Assembly (NCBI GenBank): GCA_015063165.1 | Contig: SUSZ01000013.1 | Span: 1-47,698, forward strand | Direction: 5' to 3' | Length of the DNA stretch: 47,698 nucleotides | Origin: Thermoplasmata archaeon | GTDB lineage: Archaea; Thermoplasmatota; Thermoplasmata; Methanomassiliicoccales; Methanomethylophilaceae | Part shown: in pieces, positions 5,959 to 43,157 of the stretch | How positions within the stretch are numbered: position 1 is the first letter of the stretch | How the letters are laid out: every line of letters begins with the position of its first letter | Notes under the pieces: model-generated | Database searches by the model: none | Seen by the model: only the letters and a program-made list of their open reading frames with translations | Told to the model about the DNA's origin: nothing | Made by a program: the position numbers and the translations under genes

Positions 5959-7311
5959 TCACTCCCTGTCCTCGAGGCTGACGTACTCGCGCTCGTCTAA
6001 GGTGTTGACGTAGGCGGGACGGAGGATCTTGTTGGATGTTATCAGCTCCTCCATGCGGTGGGCGCTCCACCCGACTATCCTGGCTATGGCGAAGAACGGG
6101 GTGTAGAGCTCGCGAGGTATGTCCAGCATGTCGTAGACCAGACCGCTGTAGAAGTCCACGTTCGCGCAGACGCCGTTCTTGTTCTTCTTCTTGGCCATGA
6201 TGAGTTCGGGAGCGATCCTCTCGATGATGCTGTACATCCTGAAGTCGGCCTGCCTGTGCTTCTCCACCGCCAGCTTCTCGACGAAGGACTTGAACACCTC
6301 GGCCCTGGGGTCGGAGATGGTGTAGATCGCGTGGCCCATCCCGTAGATGAGGCCCTGATGGTCGAACGCCTTCTTGTCCAGGATGCGGTTGAGATACTTG
6401 GCGAGCTCCTTCTCGTCCTCAAGGTCGTCGACGTGCTTCCTGATGTCGTCCATCATGTCCATGACCTTCAGGTTGGCCCCTCCGTGCTTGGGCCCCTTCA
6501 GAGAGGACATCGCGGCGGCTATGACGGCGTATGTGTCGGATCCGCTGGAAGTGGTGACGCGGGTGGTGAAGGTGGAGTTGTTGCCTCCTCCGTGCTCCAT
6601 GTGAAGGACCAGAGCAAGATCCAGAACGGTGGCCTCGAGGTAGGTGTAGGACTTGTCCGGCCTGAGCATCCTCAGGATGTTCTCGGCCGTGGACAGGCGA
6701 GGGTCCGGCCTGTGGATGTACATGCTCTCGTCGTTGATGTAGTGGTTGTACGAGTGGTAGCTGTACGCGGTGAGCATGGGGAAGACGCTGATCAGGTAGA
6801 TGCACTGCCTCATCACGTTGGGGATAGAGTTGTCCATGGCCTTCTTGTCGTAGGATGAGAGGAAGAGCACGCTGCGGGTCATCGAGTTCATGATGTCCTT
6901 GCTGGCGGCCTTCATGATGATGTCCCTGGTGAAGGTGCTCGGCAGCTTGCGCTCCTCAGCGAGATGCTGCTTGAACTCCTCCAAATCGTGCTCGTTGGGA
7001 AGCGATCCGAATAGCAGAAGGTACGCGGCCTCCTCGAAGCCGAACCTCTTGTTGAGGAACCCGTTGCAGATGCTCTTGATGTCGTATCCGCGGTAGCAGA
7101 GCTTTCCGGGGCACTGCGTCTTGACCCCATCGACGATCTAGGACCCGTCCACCTGGGAGACCCTGGTCAGGCCGACGATGACCCCATTTCCTTCGGAGTC
7201 GCGGAGGCCTTTCTTGACGTCGTACCTGGAATAGAGGTCGGGGGAGAACATATCGCTCTCCCTGCAGAGCTCGCACTTCTTCTCGATATAGCTCTTGTAC
7301 TCGCTGTTCAT
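5959..7311 (-). CDS. Citrate synthase with an in-frame UAG (codon 58)
   Basis: Reading through the UAG at 7138-7140 gives a complete 450-residue citrate synthase, condensing oxaloacetate and acetyl-CoA, probably for glutamate synthesis. Upstream of the UAG are 57 residues ending VSQVDGS. Downstream follow IVDGVKTQ and the conserved CYRGYDI. Catalytic residues are present: His240 in HGGGNN, His327 in GMGHAIY and Asp386 in CANVDFYSG. It resembles the clostridial-type 450-residue enzymes. The start is ATG 7311 with GGTGA six bases upstream. Without readthrough the 3' part (in-frame TTG at 6984) would lose 109 residues including YRGYDI and has no obvious ribosome site. No frameshift is needed and the real stop is UGA. 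Confidence 0.9.
7138..7140 (-). other. In-frame UAG sense codon (candidate pyrrolysine) in citrate synthase
   Basis: Plus-strand CTA at 7138-7140 reads UAG in the citrate synthase frame, between GGG-UCC and AUC-GUC. Conserved citrate synthase sequence continues in the same frame on both sides, so this is a recoded codon or a very recent nonsense mutation. Confidence 0.8.
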
Positions 7312-7484
7312 CGTCTTCACCTATGATGGAGGACACCCTTCGCTTTCAAAGCCTAGTAAACTGGATGTATAACAACGTTCCGAGACGCGAAATGAACATT
7401 AGGTAATGGAATCGAATGTTACCCGTTCTTTGAGACATATTTGTTTGAAACGGAACAGAAAAACAGGTAATGAAAAGGGAAGGG

Positions 7485-14204: not shown

Positions 14205-16223
14205 TTAATTCTCTTGAATCTGCTTCTTGAGCTCGACGACCCTCCTCTTGGCCCAGGGCACGCCCATCTGGTAGGCCTTCCTGTACCAATCGATGGCCGC
14301 TTTGACGTCCGTCTCTTTCTGAAGCCCTGTCTCGAGAGACTTCGCGCCGACGCAGCACAGCAGGGGATCGTCGGTCCCTCTCTCAACGAGCTCTCTCAGC
14401 TCGCCTTTGCCGGCGGTGAAGAGGACCAGACGCATCATCCTGCTGGTGACCTCCTGGCCCTTGAGAACCTCCGCCTTCTCCCAGATGGACAGCAGACGCT
14501 CCGCGGGGCGAGGATAATCGAGTCCTTTGTCTATGTCCAGGCCGTCGAACATCTCCATTATCCTGGACGCCAAGGCTTCCGGCCCCTCGTCCAGGACGTT
14601 GTACTCCCAGTAGTTCCTCCTGCCCAGGCCCTTCGCCATGTAGCTACGGGAGTTGTCATCGGAATATCTGAGGACGACGAGGTTGCAGTCGGCGTACATC
14701 GCGACCTCCATGAACCCTGTGAAGACGGTGACGACGAGATCGAACCCGGAGGCGGCGTTCATGAACGTGACTATGTCGCCCTCGTACCTCTTGGTGCCAG
14801 GTAGCTCCTCCTGCTCGGGGAAGGGGGTGTTGGTGTATACCTCGTATCCTCTCCCCAGGAGCCTCTCTGCCAGACCCAGCATGACGCCCATCGTGTTCTT
14901 CTTCTCGTCCTCGGACCTGACCTCTATGGAATTCCCGTATGGGTTCAGAAGGATGGAGCGCGGCCCGTGCAGACCCGACCTCCTCAGCCTCTCGCAAGGG
15001 ACATCCGCCGGCTCGACCACGGACAGAGCGGGCTCCTGGACGCGCCTGGCGGCCCCTATGTAGAAGCTTGTGTCTATGTCCCCATGGAACATCGCGCCGG
15101 GGTACAAGGGCTTGTGAGGGATCATCTTGAACCTCTGATCCTCATGATAGTTCATCGACAGGTACATGCGAAGGCTCTTCACGTCGCCCCTGGACATGAT
15201 GAAGCCGTTCATCCCCGCCAGACGAGGAAGATCCTTCGCCGTCTCGGTGACGACCATGCTCACGTCCGAGTAGTCGATGCCGTCGAACCTGGCCAGCCAT
15301 CTGTAATTGTCCCCCATCGGGTAGAATGACGTTATCATGAACCTGCCGCCCCTCTCGGACAACTTATCGCACATGGCCTTTCCGATCAGGTACCTCATCT
15401 CGATCTCCGAGACGCTGATGATCTCGAGGCTTCCGTCGGATTTGCGACCGGTGTACAGCCCCCTCTCGTTCATGATGCGGGTGTCCACGATGGCGTTGGA
15501 GGGGATCGAGCTGATCTCCTCTTCGGAGTTCGGAGCGAAGACGGCGCCGATATCGGTGCCCGTGTCGAACTCCCTGGACCTGAGGAGCTGGTTCTTGGCG
15601 CGGCTGGACTTGCCGTATGGGCAATAGACGAACACCTTCCCCGGGCCGGATGGCTTGAACCCGTTGGTGCTATATTTCACGAAGCATCTGGATGTCTTGT
15701 CCTCTGGGCATGACGTCCCATAGATTTCAGGCATGTCTCCGTCCGAACAGATGAAACGGTCTGGACGGACCCCGTAGTGAGCCAGTATGCAGAAGAGCGA
15801 GCGGATCTCGGCCTGTGTTCCGCACAGGACTATCTCCCCGTTGAGGAAGATCTCGGGATTGATGGTGCACTAGAGCTCGGCGCCGTTGCCGCTCTTGATG
15901 ATGGGATTGTCGGAATAGAGGATGTTCAGGGCGGCCTTGACGTCGCGCTCGACGGCTATCCCGTTGAAATACATCTTGAACAGCCAGAGCCTTCCCCAGA
16001 ACTGGTCTATGTTCTTGCGAGCCAGCTCCAGAGCCTCGGCGTGGTGCCCGGGATCGTCGGAGCACAGCAGAACGTTGCAGAGGTCCTTCTCGCTGGCCTT
16101 GCCCTCGGAAACGGCTTCCCTGGCGGAACGTATCGCCTCGTCCATGTCGATGCGGTCGAACGTCCCCTTCAGGACCTTCCTGTAGGCCGGGACCTCGGAA
16201 CCGCGTCTTTCGATGCTTCCCAT
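14205..16223 (-). CDS. Sel1/GT-B-like glycosyltransferase-type protein with in-frame UAG (codon 118)
   Basis: Read through the UAG at 15870-15872, this is a 672-residue protein colinear with its neighbour at 16285-18327 over its whole length. Residues 1-115 are helical Sel1-like repeats (LARKNID, RLWLFKMYFNG). The middle part has a hexapeptide-like region (GEIVLCGT, VFVYCPYG). Residues around 390-560 look like a GT-B/heptosyltransferase-type domain (LLNPYGNSIEVR, NTPFPEQEELPGT, FDLVVTVFTGFMEVAMYA). The C-terminus is again Sel1-like (AIDWYRKAYQMG). The role is probably in glycan or surface modification, by inference. AAGGATAT precedes the ATG. The UAG aligns with a Lys of the paralogue, and the true stop is UAA. 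Confidence 0.75.
15870..15872 (-). other. In-frame UAG sense codon aligned with Lys in the paralogue
   Basis: UAG lies between GAG-CUC and UGC-ACC. The flanks align with the adjacent paralogue: AEL-UAG-CTIN here against AQY-K-YIVN there, and the shared F-x-x-G-E/D-IVLCGT continues in the same frame. A lysine derivative (pyrrolysine) at a lysine position is a natural reading. Confidence 0.8.
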
Positions 16224-37022: not shown

Positions 37023-37898
37023 ATGGGTTATGCGGTAAACGTGCATGCACGCGCCACCCTTATCACGCCTCCGGACGAGTTCCTCGGCATGTACGACGAA
37101 TCCGGCAGGAAGTGGATGATGGATACCGTTCGCAGGGCGGACGACGGCGACAGCGAGGCTATGAAGGCCTTGGACGTGCTCTCCGGACGCAGGATCGAGG
37201 AGATCGGCACCAGGGCGCTCGACAGGCTGATAGCGGAGGGAAGCTCTTGGGCGCCGCTTCTCCTGGGAAGGCTTTTCGAGGAGAGGTGCCAGACGGACGA
37301 CGACGTCTGCACCGCGATAAGGCTTTACGAGGAGTCCGCGGACAAAACCAACCCGTACGCCATGGTGGCGATGGCCAGGATCTTCGAGAAAGGGGACCAT
37401 GTCGTGAGGTCCTTCCACAACGCCTACATCCAGTACAAGAGGGCGGCCTTCATGGGATGCCCGCCCGCGGTCGAATGGATGGAGAGGAACGGAGAGAAGG
37501 GAAGATGCTAGGTCGACCTGGACAGCAGATGCGACTCCAGCGACCCCCAGGCGATGTACGATGTGGGGCTTCTGCATGAGGAGGGCGACTAGACCGAGCA
37601 TTCCTACGGAGCGGCGTTCTCGCTGTACATGACAGCCGCGCTGAAAGGGCACAAGGCGTCCGCGATGAAGGTGTCCGAGTTCCTCATGGAGGGCAAAGGG
37701 GTGCCGTCCGACCCGGAGCTGGCCCTGATGATCCTGATACTGCTGGCCGACCATGGATGCGTAGAAGCCCAGGACATGCTCCGCTCGATGACCGACTACG
37801 ACCTCGCGGACTGCCGCGGCGACGAGCTGGAGTCTTCGGAATACCCCGAGGACTCCTGGGGTCAGGAGGTCTTGGAGAGGATCGGAAGCCTCGGGTGA
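37023..37898 (+). CDS. Sel1-like repeat protein with two in-frame UAG codons
   Basis: Reading both UAGs (37509-37511 and 37590-37592) as sense gives 291 residues with Sel1/TPR-like helical repeats throughout: AIRLYEESADKTNPYAM and IQYKRAAFMGC before the first UAG, AMYDVGLLHEEGD just before the second, and SLYMTAALKGHKASAM plus ALMILILLADHGCVEAQ after it. The second UAG falls at the usual Gly of the G-x-G-V turn of a Sel1 repeat. The frame is the same across all three segments and the final stop is UGA. The protein is probably an interaction scaffold. The start may be ATG 37023 or, from the TATA spacing, GTG 37041. Confidence 0.7.
37509..37511 (+). other. In-frame UAG sense codon 163 of the Sel1-like gene
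   Basis: UAG sits between AGA-UGC and GUC-GAC. The frame stays open afterwards and codes for the next Sel1-like repeat (QAMYDVGLLHEEGD). Confidence 0.7.
37590..37592 (+). other. In-frame UAG sense codon 190 of the Sel1-like gene
   Basis: UAG sits between GGC-GAC and ACC-GAG, inside a Sel1 repeat whose first helix precedes it and whose second helix (AAFSLYMTAALKGH) follows in the same frame. Confidence 0.75.
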
Positions 37899-39008: not shown

Positions 39009-41129
39009 ATGACTGCCACCGCTCTGATGGATCTCGTAGAGGGAGGCGGATGCATCGGATGCTACGCCTGCCTCCATGTCTGCGAGAAGGATGCCATAGC
39101 CCTCCGCATGGACGAGAGGGGATTCCGCACGGCACAGATCGATCCTTCCGCATGCGACGGCTGCGGGAAGTGCGTCCAGACGTGTCCTCAGCTGACCGGA
39201 GAGGCCGACGGGAAGCCCATGGCCGCCTGCTATGCTGTTAAGGCCGAGCCTACGGTGCAGTCCAGGAGCTCTTCCGGAGGAGCGTTCGACCTTGTCTCCA
39301 GGTGGATGCTCAGGCGCGGAGGATCCGTATGCGGGGTCGCGATGGCGGAAGACCTCGTCCCGACGTTCAGGATCGCCCGCGACGAAGAGGGTCTGGAACC
39401 GATGCACGGGTCCAAGTTCGCGTTCAGCGACATGAAAGGCATCTATGATGGGATCTCGAAGGAGCTGGAAGACGGCAGAGAGGTCCTTTTCGTGGGTCTC
39501 CCCTGCCAGGTCCGCGCCGTCCGCAACGTCTTCCATGACGACCGCCTCTACACTGTCGACCTGATCTGCAACGGGATGCCGTCGGAAGGCGTCTATAGAA
39601 GGTATCTCGAAGAGCTTTCACAGAGCAGGAAGGTAGCGAACCTCGTGTTCAGGGCCTCAGACGTCCACTAGGGCACCCTTGTGGTCGCTTACGAGGACGG
39701 GACGACCAGGAACATCGTGAACGACCCGTATCTCAAAGGATACTCCGAATGCCTTTTCGTATCCGACGGATGCTCCGGATGCAGGCTGGCCAATACCCCT
39801 CGCGTCGGGGACCTGACCGTCGGGGAGCTGTTCGAAGCGGACAGGATCCTCCCGGACACGGACGTCCGCGACGGGGTCAGCACCATCCTGGTGAACAACG
39901 ACAAGGGAGGTAGCATGTTCGACGGGATCCAGAAGGATGCCTCGTACGTCAGGCGCATCCCGCTCTCGTTCTCCAAGAGGTTCAACAATTACGACAAGAA
40001 GCGCGACAGTCCCGAGAAGGAGAGGTTCTTCCACCTGCTGGACAAGGGGATGCCGATGTCCAAGGCGCTGCTGTACAGCGTCGAGCGCAGGTACGACGTC
40101 GCCATAACAGGGTTCTGGAGGGTGTACAACTACGGCGGGGTGCTGACGTACTACGCCCTGTACAACCTGATGGAGGACATGGACCTGGAGCCTATTATGG
40201 TCGACAGCAGGCACACGATAAAGGGCCGTCTGCCCAACCCGAGGCTGTACAGGACCGGATATCCGGCCTACAGCAGGGACTTCTGGTTCGCCACCAAGGA
40301 TGCCCAGCGCAAGGACCTGAACCCCCGCATCCGCAACTTCGTCGTCGGATCCGACCAGGTCTGGAACAGGGACCTGATCAAGCAGGAGTCGCTGGAGGCC
40401 TACGGACTGGACTTCGTGGAGCCCTGGAGGAACAGGGTGTCGATAGCCGCGTCCTTCGGGAAAGGGAAGTTCTCAGGGTCGGACGAGGACAAGGAGAGGT
40501 TCGCCACGCTTCTGAAGAGGTTCAACCACGTCTCCGTGAGAGAGGACGCAGGGGCGAAGCTGTGCAGGAGCATGGGCGTAAAGGCCAGAACCCTTCTGGA
40601 CCCTGTCATGCTGTGCGATCCTCGCCATTTCCTGGAACTCGCCGAGAAGGGCGATGCCGAACCCGAAGGCGAGTACGTGTTCAACTACATGATCGTCCCG
40701 GCCAGATTCGAAGGCATGGGAGAGGTCTACGACGAGTTGGGGATAGAGCCCGTCACGATACCTGGAGCCGCCGCTGTGGGGGCGGAGAAGCTGGGCGTGC
40801 CGCTTACCGACCCTGGGTGCGTCGAGAACTGGATGAGGTACTTCCAGGGATGCTCCTTCGTGTTCACCGACTCGTTCCACGCCACGGTGTTCTCCATCCT
40901 GTTCAGGAAGCCGTTCGTCACCATAGCCAGCGAGACGAAGGAGGGCGGAGGCAGGGTAGGCACGATCCTGAACGCCCTCGGCCTGCAGGACCGCATGTTC
41001 GAGAGCGTGGGCAAAGTGCTGGAATCCGGCGTCCTCAAAGAGCCCATCGACTTCGATTCGGCTCATGAGAAGCTGAAGACGCTCCGCTCGGACTGTCTGG
41101 AATGGATAGACAAGGCCCTGATACGCTGA
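39009..41129 (+). CDS. FrhB-like/polysaccharide pyruvyl transferase fusion with in-frame UAG (codon 221)
   Basis: With the UAG at 39669-39671 read as sense, this is a 706-residue two-module protein. Residues 1-65 are a dicluster ferredoxin (CIGCYACLHVC, CDGCGKCVQTC). Residues 80-340 are the F420 hydrogenase/dehydrogenase beta-subunit fold (SSSGGAFDLVSRW, FVGLPCQVRAVRN, then CSGCRLANTPRVGDLTVGE after the UAG). Residues 360-706 are a polysaccharide pyruvyl transferase domain (GFWRVYNYGGVLTYYAL, VVGSDQVWNRD, FTDSFHATVFSI). Such pairs occur in glycan loci, where the F420/flavin module may reduce or modify a sugar. The UAG splits the FrhB domain, so neither fragment alone would be complete. The stop is UGA. 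Confidence 0.85.
39669..39671 (+). other. In-frame UAG sense codon in the FrhB domain
   Basis: UAG is between GUC-CAC and GGC-ACC, just after FRASD and before the LVVAYEDG strand. FrhB relatives often have Trp near this point (FRxxxxGW), so UGG to UAG is one possible origin. Confidence 0.8.
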
Positions 41130-43157
41130 TCAGACGTAGCGCTTCCTGATCTCCAGAGCCTGCTTCGCGCGTCCGGGGGCTATGGGGCTGCCGTCCTTGA
41201 GGTGCGCCATGACGTCCTCGATGACCTCCACCTCCTTCCTGTCCCCGGATTCGCGGAGGATGGCATACTTGACCTTGCGCCAGTCACTGAAGGACCTCAG
41301 GGCGTAGACCGCATCGTCCATGTCGCCCCTGCGCTTCTCTTCGTAGGCCGCGGACCTCTCCTCGGACTGCTCCACCGTTATGCAGTGCCCGAGGACGACG
41401 TCGTCGAACGGGACCTCCATCTCGGAGAAGGACTCCCAGCAGGAAGGCTTCCTGCATTCCTGCATGGCGCTGCCCCCTGCCTCGGTTATACCGTCCAGAT
41501 AGGTCTGGAACTCCTTCGCGGCCGCGAGGGCGTGGCGGACGAGCGAGATATCCGCGATCTGCCTGGTCCAGATCTCGTCGGTGTCTATGACGCGGCCCCT
41601 GTCCTTGAGGTCCTGGATGGTCTTGGACACGGCGTAGCTGCATATCTGCGGCTTCATGTATCCCTCGAACCAGTCCTCCTTGCCGATGGCCTCGTAGACG
41701 TCCTCATAGAGGATCGAGGTGGTCACGGACTCCTTGAAGTACTCGTCGTCGAACCTGGCGGGGTTCTCGGCGAACGCCTTCGAGATGTCCTTGGAGAAGA
41801 AGCTGTAGCAGGTCTGGCCGCCCTTCGAGGCCATGTCGGGCTGGAGGTCGATCATGTACCTGCACTTGGCCAGGTCGATCTTGTCCATCCTGCGCCTCTT
41901 GTCGTACGTCCTCTTGAACGCGGCGCGCTCTGACTCGGTCCCCTTGGTGGAATCCTGTTCGAACTGTCCCCTTGTGCGCTCGTAGAACCACTTCTCCTGG
42001 CTTCCGGGGATCTCGCACCTGCGCGAAGCGTTCTCCATGGCCATCTGGAACTCGGTGCTCGACGAGAGGTCCGATTCCCTGACGGCGTTCTGGGTGTTGA
42101 CGAAGACGGAGATGTTCCTCACGATGTCCACGGCGTCCTCGGCGGACACCACGGTGAGCTTCATAGGGACGTAGACCTCGTTGATCTTGTCCCTGTACTT
42201 CGTCTTGAGCTCCTTGAAGAGCGAGACGGTGGTCTGTCCTCCGTTCACTATCTGGAGGTTGGTGAACGACTTGATGCCGGTCTCGTCCATCTCCACGGAC
42301 GAGGCGGTGAGGGCGACCCCGTTGTTGTAGGCGAAGAACATGCCGGGGTCCTCGCGGATGGTGTTGCGTATTCCCCTGTTGACCTTGGTCTTCACCGTAA
42401 GGAACGACCTGACGTTGGATTCGAGCAGCTTGCTGCCGTAGTCGCGGTAGATCAGAGCGAGGAAGAGCCCGGGGACGGTGCCTATGTAGGAGGTGCACCT
42501 GGCGTTGGATCCGGCCTTGACGCAGGGGATGGACGAGAACCCGAAGTCTGAGACCTTGATGACACGATAGTCGTCCGGACGGGACGAGCCTAGCGTCTCC
42601 TTCATGAACGCCATGTCGATGAGACGGAGGAACACGGGCTTCCCGTCCAGGTCCCTGTCCTTGATCTCCTTGAACCTGACGCTGCGGATCTTGTCGGTGA
42701 CGACGTAGACGAAGATGCGGTCGTACCCTGGGAATCCCATGCGGACGTGCCTGGCCAGCCCGTGTCCGGGGTCCTGGGGGTCGGTGATCTCCTCCACGAC
42801 CTTGTTCACGGACTCGTCGATGAACGCGATGCAGTGCTTGGCGTGGTCGTAGAACTCCTTCTCGGTCATCCTGGAAGGCTCGGCGTCGCCGGTGTAGTCG
42901 CACACAAACAGGCTGAGGGTGCTGTCCCCAAGACCTCCCTCCCCGTCCGTGTAGGCGTACCCATGGACGGCCATGGCCCTGTTGCGCCTACCGTTCCCTT
43001 CGTATCTGCAGACCTCCGCCTGCGGGCACACGTCGAGGGCGGCCATGTCCTTGGTGGCCTCCTCCAGGAACCTGTCCGCGGCGGACGTTCCCGTCTCGGA
43101 CGCGTACTTCCTGATATCTTCGAGATACTGGCTACGATAAGTTTCGACTTCGTCCAT
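41130..43157 (-). CDS. AIPR-family (abortive infection phage resistance) protein
   Basis: 675 residues. The central region carries the AIPR hallmarks: GSKLLESNVRSFL, NTIREDPGMFFAYNNGVALTA (268-284) and NLQIVNGGQTTVSLF (300-314), then FVNTQNAV. The family is linked to phage defence, sometimes in restriction-like loci, and is thought to act on nucleic acid. Residues 1-240 and 400-675 are less conserved; the C-terminus is charged and helical. The start ATG has a GGAGG site overlapping the stop of the upstream gene. It is the last gene of a three-gene operon with two unrecognised partners and may be the effector. Confidence 0.82.
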   Translation of the reverse strand: MDEVETYRSQYLEDIRKYASETGTSAADRFLEEATKDMAALDVCPQAEVCRYEGNGRRNRAMAVHGYAYTDGEGGLGDSTLSLFVCDYTGDAEPSRMTEKEFYDHAKHCIAFIDESVNKVVEEITDPQDPGHGLARHVRMGFPGYDRIFVYVVTDKIRSVRFKEIKDRDLDGKPVFLRLIDMAFMKETLGSSRPDDYRVIKVSDFGFSSIPCVKAGSNARCTSYIGTVPGLFLALIYRDYGSKLLESNVRSFLTVKTKVNRGIRNTIREDPGMFFAYNNGVALTASSVEMDETGIKSFTNLQIVNGGQTTVSLFKELKTKYRDKINEVYVPMKLTVVSAEDAVDIVRNISVFVNTQNAVRESDLSSSTEFQMAMENASRRCEIPGSQEKWFYERTRGQFEQDSTKGTESERAAFKRTYDKRRRMDKIDLAKCRYMIDLQPDMASKGGQTCYSFFSKDISKAFAENPARFDDEYFKESVTTSILYEDVYEAIGKEDWFEGYMKPQICSYAVSKTIQDLKDRGRVIDTDEIWTRQIADISLVRHALAAAKEFQTYLDGITEAGGSAMQECRKPSCWESFSEMEVPFDDVVLGHCITVEQSEERSAAYEEKRRGDMDDAVYALRSFSDWRKVKYAILRESGDRKEVEVIEDVMAHLKDGSPIAPGRAKQALEIRKRYV

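Follow-up and report, generated by a model that had tools for sequence, protein, structure and literature searches.

A private in-frame UAG, probably a pyrrolysine codon, in an Fe-S/FrhB-like and pyruvyl-transferase fusion gene of a Methanomethylophilaceae archaeon

The fusion gene and its in-frame TAG

The window, a contig stretch of 47,698 nucleotides from a Thermoplasmata archaeon of the Methanomethylophilaceae, a methanogen of gut type, contains on its forward strand a fusion gene that starts with ATG at 39009, ends with TGA at 41127–41129 and comprises 706 codons when one in-frame TAG is counted as pyrrolysine (Table 1). This TAG is the sole stop ahead of the terminal TGA, and the 706 codons contained no further stop or frameshift. 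A chance frame is excluded, because the 485-codon continuation past the TAG holds the complete second domain and full-length homologues exist (29 sequences aligned). A GTG-started frame (39681–41129) opens shortly after the TAG. On the opposite strand, a gene for an AIPR abortive-infection-type protein (41130–43157; 252 bits) abuts the fusion gene in convergent orientation.

Pfam matches bore out the domain layout proposed in the initial annotation, which had the FrhB-like domain spanning the UAG and a pyruvyl-transferase domain following in the same frame as the Fe-S/FrhB part. The cysteines of the 4Fe-4S motifs (Cys 15, 18, 21, 25, 49, 52, 55 and 59) were invariant across the 29 sequences.

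Table 1 Features of the fusion gene in window coordinates
Feature	Position	Strand	Evidence
Whole fusion gene	39009..41129	+	Open frame; full-length homologues
In-frame TAG, codon 221	39669..39671	+	
Two 4Fe-4S (ferredoxin-type) motifs, residues 15–60	39051..39188	+	Pfam Fer4_7, 39.2 bits
FrhB_FdhB_C domain (PF04432), residues 157–310, codon 221 within	39477..39938	+	Pfam, 75.9 bits (cut-off 23.3); F420-reducing-enzyme fold match
Strand-loop-strand, residues 209–228, residue 221 in loop	39633..39692	+	AlphaFold2, mean pLDDT 90.8
Polysaccharide pyruvyl transferase domain (PF04230, PS_pyruv_trans), residues 374–641	40128..40931	+	Pfam, 90.7 bits (cut-off 25.3)

An AlphaFold2 model of the fusion protein, computed from the 29-sequence alignment with the TAG entered as Lys (mean pLDDT 90.8, pTM 0.86), placed residue 221 in a loop (215–223) between two strands (209–214 and 224–228). 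Residues 1–333 matched a component of the F420-reducing CO dehydrogenase (8riu_B; Z 25.9, 3.4 Å, 302 residues aligned), and the structure search also returned 8rja_E, F420-dependent sulfite reductase and HCAR for this part. The rest of the protein matched GT-B-like enzymes, and the pyruvyl-transferase domain matched the yeast pyruvyl transferase Pvg1p (5ax7; Z 17.4, 3.6 Å over 263 residues). By Pfam and by fold, the first part is a member of FrhB_FdhB_C, with predicted flavin/F420 use.

Comparison of the protein on either side of the TAG revealed an after/before divergence ratio of 1.04 (sd 0.09) in 20 pairs with the window gene and of 1.06 (sd 0.15) in 183 pairs without it, the pairs in both sets being non-independent. 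Base changes specific to the window gene numbered 26 in the 207 codons before the TAG, 12 in the 88 codons that remain of the FrhB domain and 28 in the 392 codons that follow it. Cysteines invariant in the 29 sequences were retained both before and after the TAG (e.g., C255 and C258). These sequence comparisons thus gave no sign of decay downstream of the TAG, as would also be the case for a very recent mutation.

TAG usage and pyrrolysine machinery in the host genome

The host genome (G000; 2.28 Mb, window included) encodes PylS, PylB, PylC and PylD, all above the NCBIfam cut-offs and all on one contig, and a tRNA-Pyl with anticodon CTA adjoins pylS, with pylB, pylC and pylD alongside. Two mtmB genes of this genome carry the known kind of in-frame TAG and served as internal positive controls. 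Near the pyl and mtmB genes, a nitroreductase-family gene (L056:10449-10961, minus strand) has an in-frame TAG at codon 81. The genome also encodes aRF1, so termination may compete with pyrrolysine insertion at the UAG of the fusion gene; an altered release factor was rejected, since this aRF1 carries NIKS and YRCDSQF, which we take to mark an ordinary protein (motifs NIKS and YxCxxxF).

A survey of 481,202 bases of the host genome, window included, revealed that TAG is a rare terminator, ending 23 of 333 called ORFs. A coding-like in-frame extension followed 16 of these 23 ORFs, compared with 26 of the 310 ended by TGA or TAA (23/278 and 3/32, respectively). A second run, which used different thresholds and a separate codon model, gave 17/28 for TAG versus 28/314 (Fisher p 4e-10). 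In samples of the same genus, the extension was found for 5/12 (G026), 4/5 (G029) and 2/6 (G014) TAG-ended ORFs; in a class-level relative, which may or may not carry pyl genes, it was found for 1/12 TAG-ended ORFs versus 2/67 (G146).

A crude caller detected 33 TAG-containing ORFs in the 481 kb, of which 23 were scanned with Pfam together with one transposase; the other 10 mostly had the TAG near the start or overlapped another gene. In 8 of the 24 frames scanned, the TAG fell inside the stretch with the best Pfam score (the FrhB fusion, a Sel1 protein, citrate synthase, two MtmB, DUF2099, PhzF and Dus), and Pfam matches flanked it on both sides in the nitroreductase and transposase frames; for the remaining 14 the scan bears neither way. 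Seven of the 23 TAG-ended ORFs had no coding-like extension, and thus some TAG codons may still terminate; of these seven, three lack any Pfam match and could be spurious ORFs, and in another, a transposase, the rve domain extends beyond the TAG. True TAG terminators are therefore few in this genome, though some may exist, and TAG appears to be mostly a sense codon there.

The window itself contains other genes of this kind. The citrate synthase gene (5962–7320, minus strand; 391 bits) has a TAG at 7138–7140 (codon 61), inside the Pfam domain, and the gene for a Sel1-repeat protein (37023–37898, plus strand) has in-frame TAGs at 37509–37511 and 37590–37592, one of them within the Sel1 match. 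A 672-codon frame with no Pfam match (14205–16223, minus strand) has a TAG at 15870–15872 (codon 118).

A PYLIS-like signal at the TAG of the fusion gene was rejected: nothing in Rfam matched positions 39400–40200 even at E values of up to 5, and no unusually stable RNA structure was found after the TAG (folding z-score −0.98). A genome-wide search for PYLIS_1 returned one match, under the family cut-off and on another contig. According to the portion of PMC4153887 used here, PYLIS-type signals are not obligatory for pyrrolysine insertion.

Homologues and the codon at site 221

The host genome contains seven copies of the fusion, and the window copy alone has an internal stop. Codon alignment of 29 sequences, the window gene included, revealed Tyr at site 221 in 16 of the 20 nearest homologues (TAC 15, TAT 1), with Lys in two and Gln and Pro in one each; eight more distant sequences had Ala, Ser, Pro, Pro, Thr, Thr, His and Trp. 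The residue is thus moderately conserved as Tyr within the near clade and lies outside the invariant columns of the alignment. The comparison was widened with 42 of 46 loci from contigs of named genomes, the other four having no single aligned piece that covered residues 205–235; two pyruvyl-transferase-only frames were left out. Among these 42 loci the loop varied in length and a G-W motif was frequent in bacterial members, and the exact column shifted with the alignment.

TAG at site 221 was found in none of the 28 other aligned sequences and none of the 42 loci. Full-length homologues with an internal stop, apart from the window gene itself, were found neither in the 31 genomes of the genus, a set that includes the host genome and in which four genomes, the host again among them, have a match at E <= 1e-80, nor among the matches listed for 150 genomes. 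A first scan of genome contigs turned up no relative, and the 20 bases around the TAG had no match in viral contigs. Of the named records that contain a homologue, the nearest are two MAGs, one of a sheep-rumen Methanomethylophilaceae and one of a Methanomassiliicoccaceae. tblastn with the neighbouring LRR_5 and AIPR genes and with the Sel1 gene placed none of them beside G026:C31 (L044) or G000:C17:132221 (L041), so orthology has no support from synteny. At another locus of the host genome (L042, G000:C17:78000-90000), four Fe-S/FrhB/pyruvyl-transferase fusion paralogues are clustered in alternating orientation, and similar clusters occur in G025, G026 and G029.

The initial annotation had noted Trp near this position in relatives and had proposed a change from UGG to UAG. 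Trp does occur in distant relatives, in a G-W motif a few columns off (bacterial and distant archaeal members), but the nearest homologues have Tyr, and the route from Trp was rejected because their codons are TAC and TAT. With TAC in 15 of the 20, a change from TAC to TAG is a single step and the shortest path. A variable loop with frequent stops in sister strains had been named as the pattern that would count against the proposal; the loop did prove to vary within the family, but no stop codon was present at site 221 in sister species, so the mutation looks private to the window lineage.

Interpretation and comparison with known systems

The reading that we hold to be very probable is that of a functional Fe-S/FrhB-like and pyruvyl-transferase fusion whose private UAG is read as pyrrolysine and tolerated in the FrhB loop. 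A point mutation, most simply TAC to TAG at a Tyr codon, would have placed the UAG in the loop; the general pyrrolysine system would decode it through Pyl-tRNA to give the full-length protein; and the codon would persist because site 221 tolerates other side chains, such as the Lys and Gln of homologues. The pyl genes, the tRNA-Pyl, the UAG-containing mtmB genes and the rarity of UAG termination make pyrrolysine the most likely residue at 221. On sequence grounds, the site is probably a pyrrolysine codon and probably neutral; insertion, its efficiency and neutrality are all things that we infer.

A young pseudogene, in which the UAG is a terminating nonsense mutation tolerated thanks to six paralogues, is unlikely. 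The UAG is private to the window copy, and since the six other copies are stop-free a broken one could be tolerated; however, the gene has acquired neither a second stop or frameshift nor an excess of divergence past the UAG, in a genome where tRNA-Pyl and PylRS are present and TAG is usually sense. A sequencing or assembly error in place of a real TAC (Tyr) has in its favour the single genome of the species and the single base separating TAG from the codon of the homologues, but TAG in other conserved genes genome-wide suggests a real property and makes such an error highly improbable. Least credible of all, to the point of near dismissal, is a programmed two-product gene, in which a stop at the UAG or a restart at GTG 39681 would yield separate Fe-S and pyruvyl-transferase polypeptides: the GTG-started frame begins shortly past the TAG, but both cuts fall within one folded FrhB domain, and full-length homologues are uninterrupted among the matches listed.

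The initial annotation had also raised selection of pyrrolysine near the F420/flavin site. The codon does lie within the FrhB domain, at a site that keeps some preference for Tyr in the near clade, but the results went against the proposal: UAG was absent from the site in all homologues examined, loop length differs among family members, column 221 is not invariant, and UAG occurs in many unrelated genes of the host genome. Nothing points to selection at a flavin/F420 site, and a selected catalytic or cofactor-binding role for Pyl221 is very unlikely. There is likewise just a slim chance that Pyl221, in the window paralogue alone, was recruited to a role in the FrhB-like domain, structural or electrophilic; if true, a redox enzyme with the F420-reductase fold would contain a pyrrolysine with its own function.

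With the preferred reading, a private and tolerated pyrrolysine codon, the fusion gene adds little on pyrrolysine chemistry and is a clean, checkable example of such a codon drifting into an unrelated enzyme. Standard annotation would give two false genes here and, judging by the other TAG-bearing genes as well, many genuine genes of such methanogens would come out of standard gene calling in pieces.

Residues 1–333 resemble the FrhB/FpoF/Fsr/HCAR fold family, from which the fusion differs in its attached pyruvyl-transferase domain and in that F420 use is predicted. Gut Lachnospiraceae and Ruminiclostridium seem to have the same three-part fusion (at L082 and L084, among other loci), with matches over nearly the whole query (e.g., L082, 36% identity in the best segment, residues 6–704); these bacterial members have a longer loop, in many cases with a G-W or S-W motif, and no TAG at the site. 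Its occurrence in gut bacteria and archaea suggests possible transfer between them.

In contrast to mtmB, mtbB and mttB, where the pyrrolysine site is conserved, the UAG of the fusion gene is not shared at the same site by the homologues examined. A pyrrolysine codon in the tRNA-His guanylyltransferase of Methanosarcina, reportedly with experimental support, is said to have been interpreted as neutral evolution by Heinemann et al. in 2009; both are pyrrolysine codons outside methyltransferases, but the enzymes differ and the fusion is known from its sequence alone. A 2025 paper in Science reportedly describes archaea in which every TAG codon stands for pyrrolysine. The phenomenon is most likely one already known in the order, to which the fusion gene adds one further example. 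In the excerpts that we draw on, amber stops are described as little used in Methanomassiliicoccales (PMC3941956), and for 'Ca. Methanomethylophilus alvus' 16 further predicted Pyl proteins are given and an in-frame amber codon is argued to be a stable mutation (Borrel et al. 2014, PMC4153887). As far as those excerpts extend, the two cases share in-frame TAG codons in ordinary genes where homologues carry a sense codon, the pyrrolysine machinery and few TAG stops, whereas the present one concerns another species and another gene, with a TAG density in the 481-kb sample that looks higher by a crude caller.
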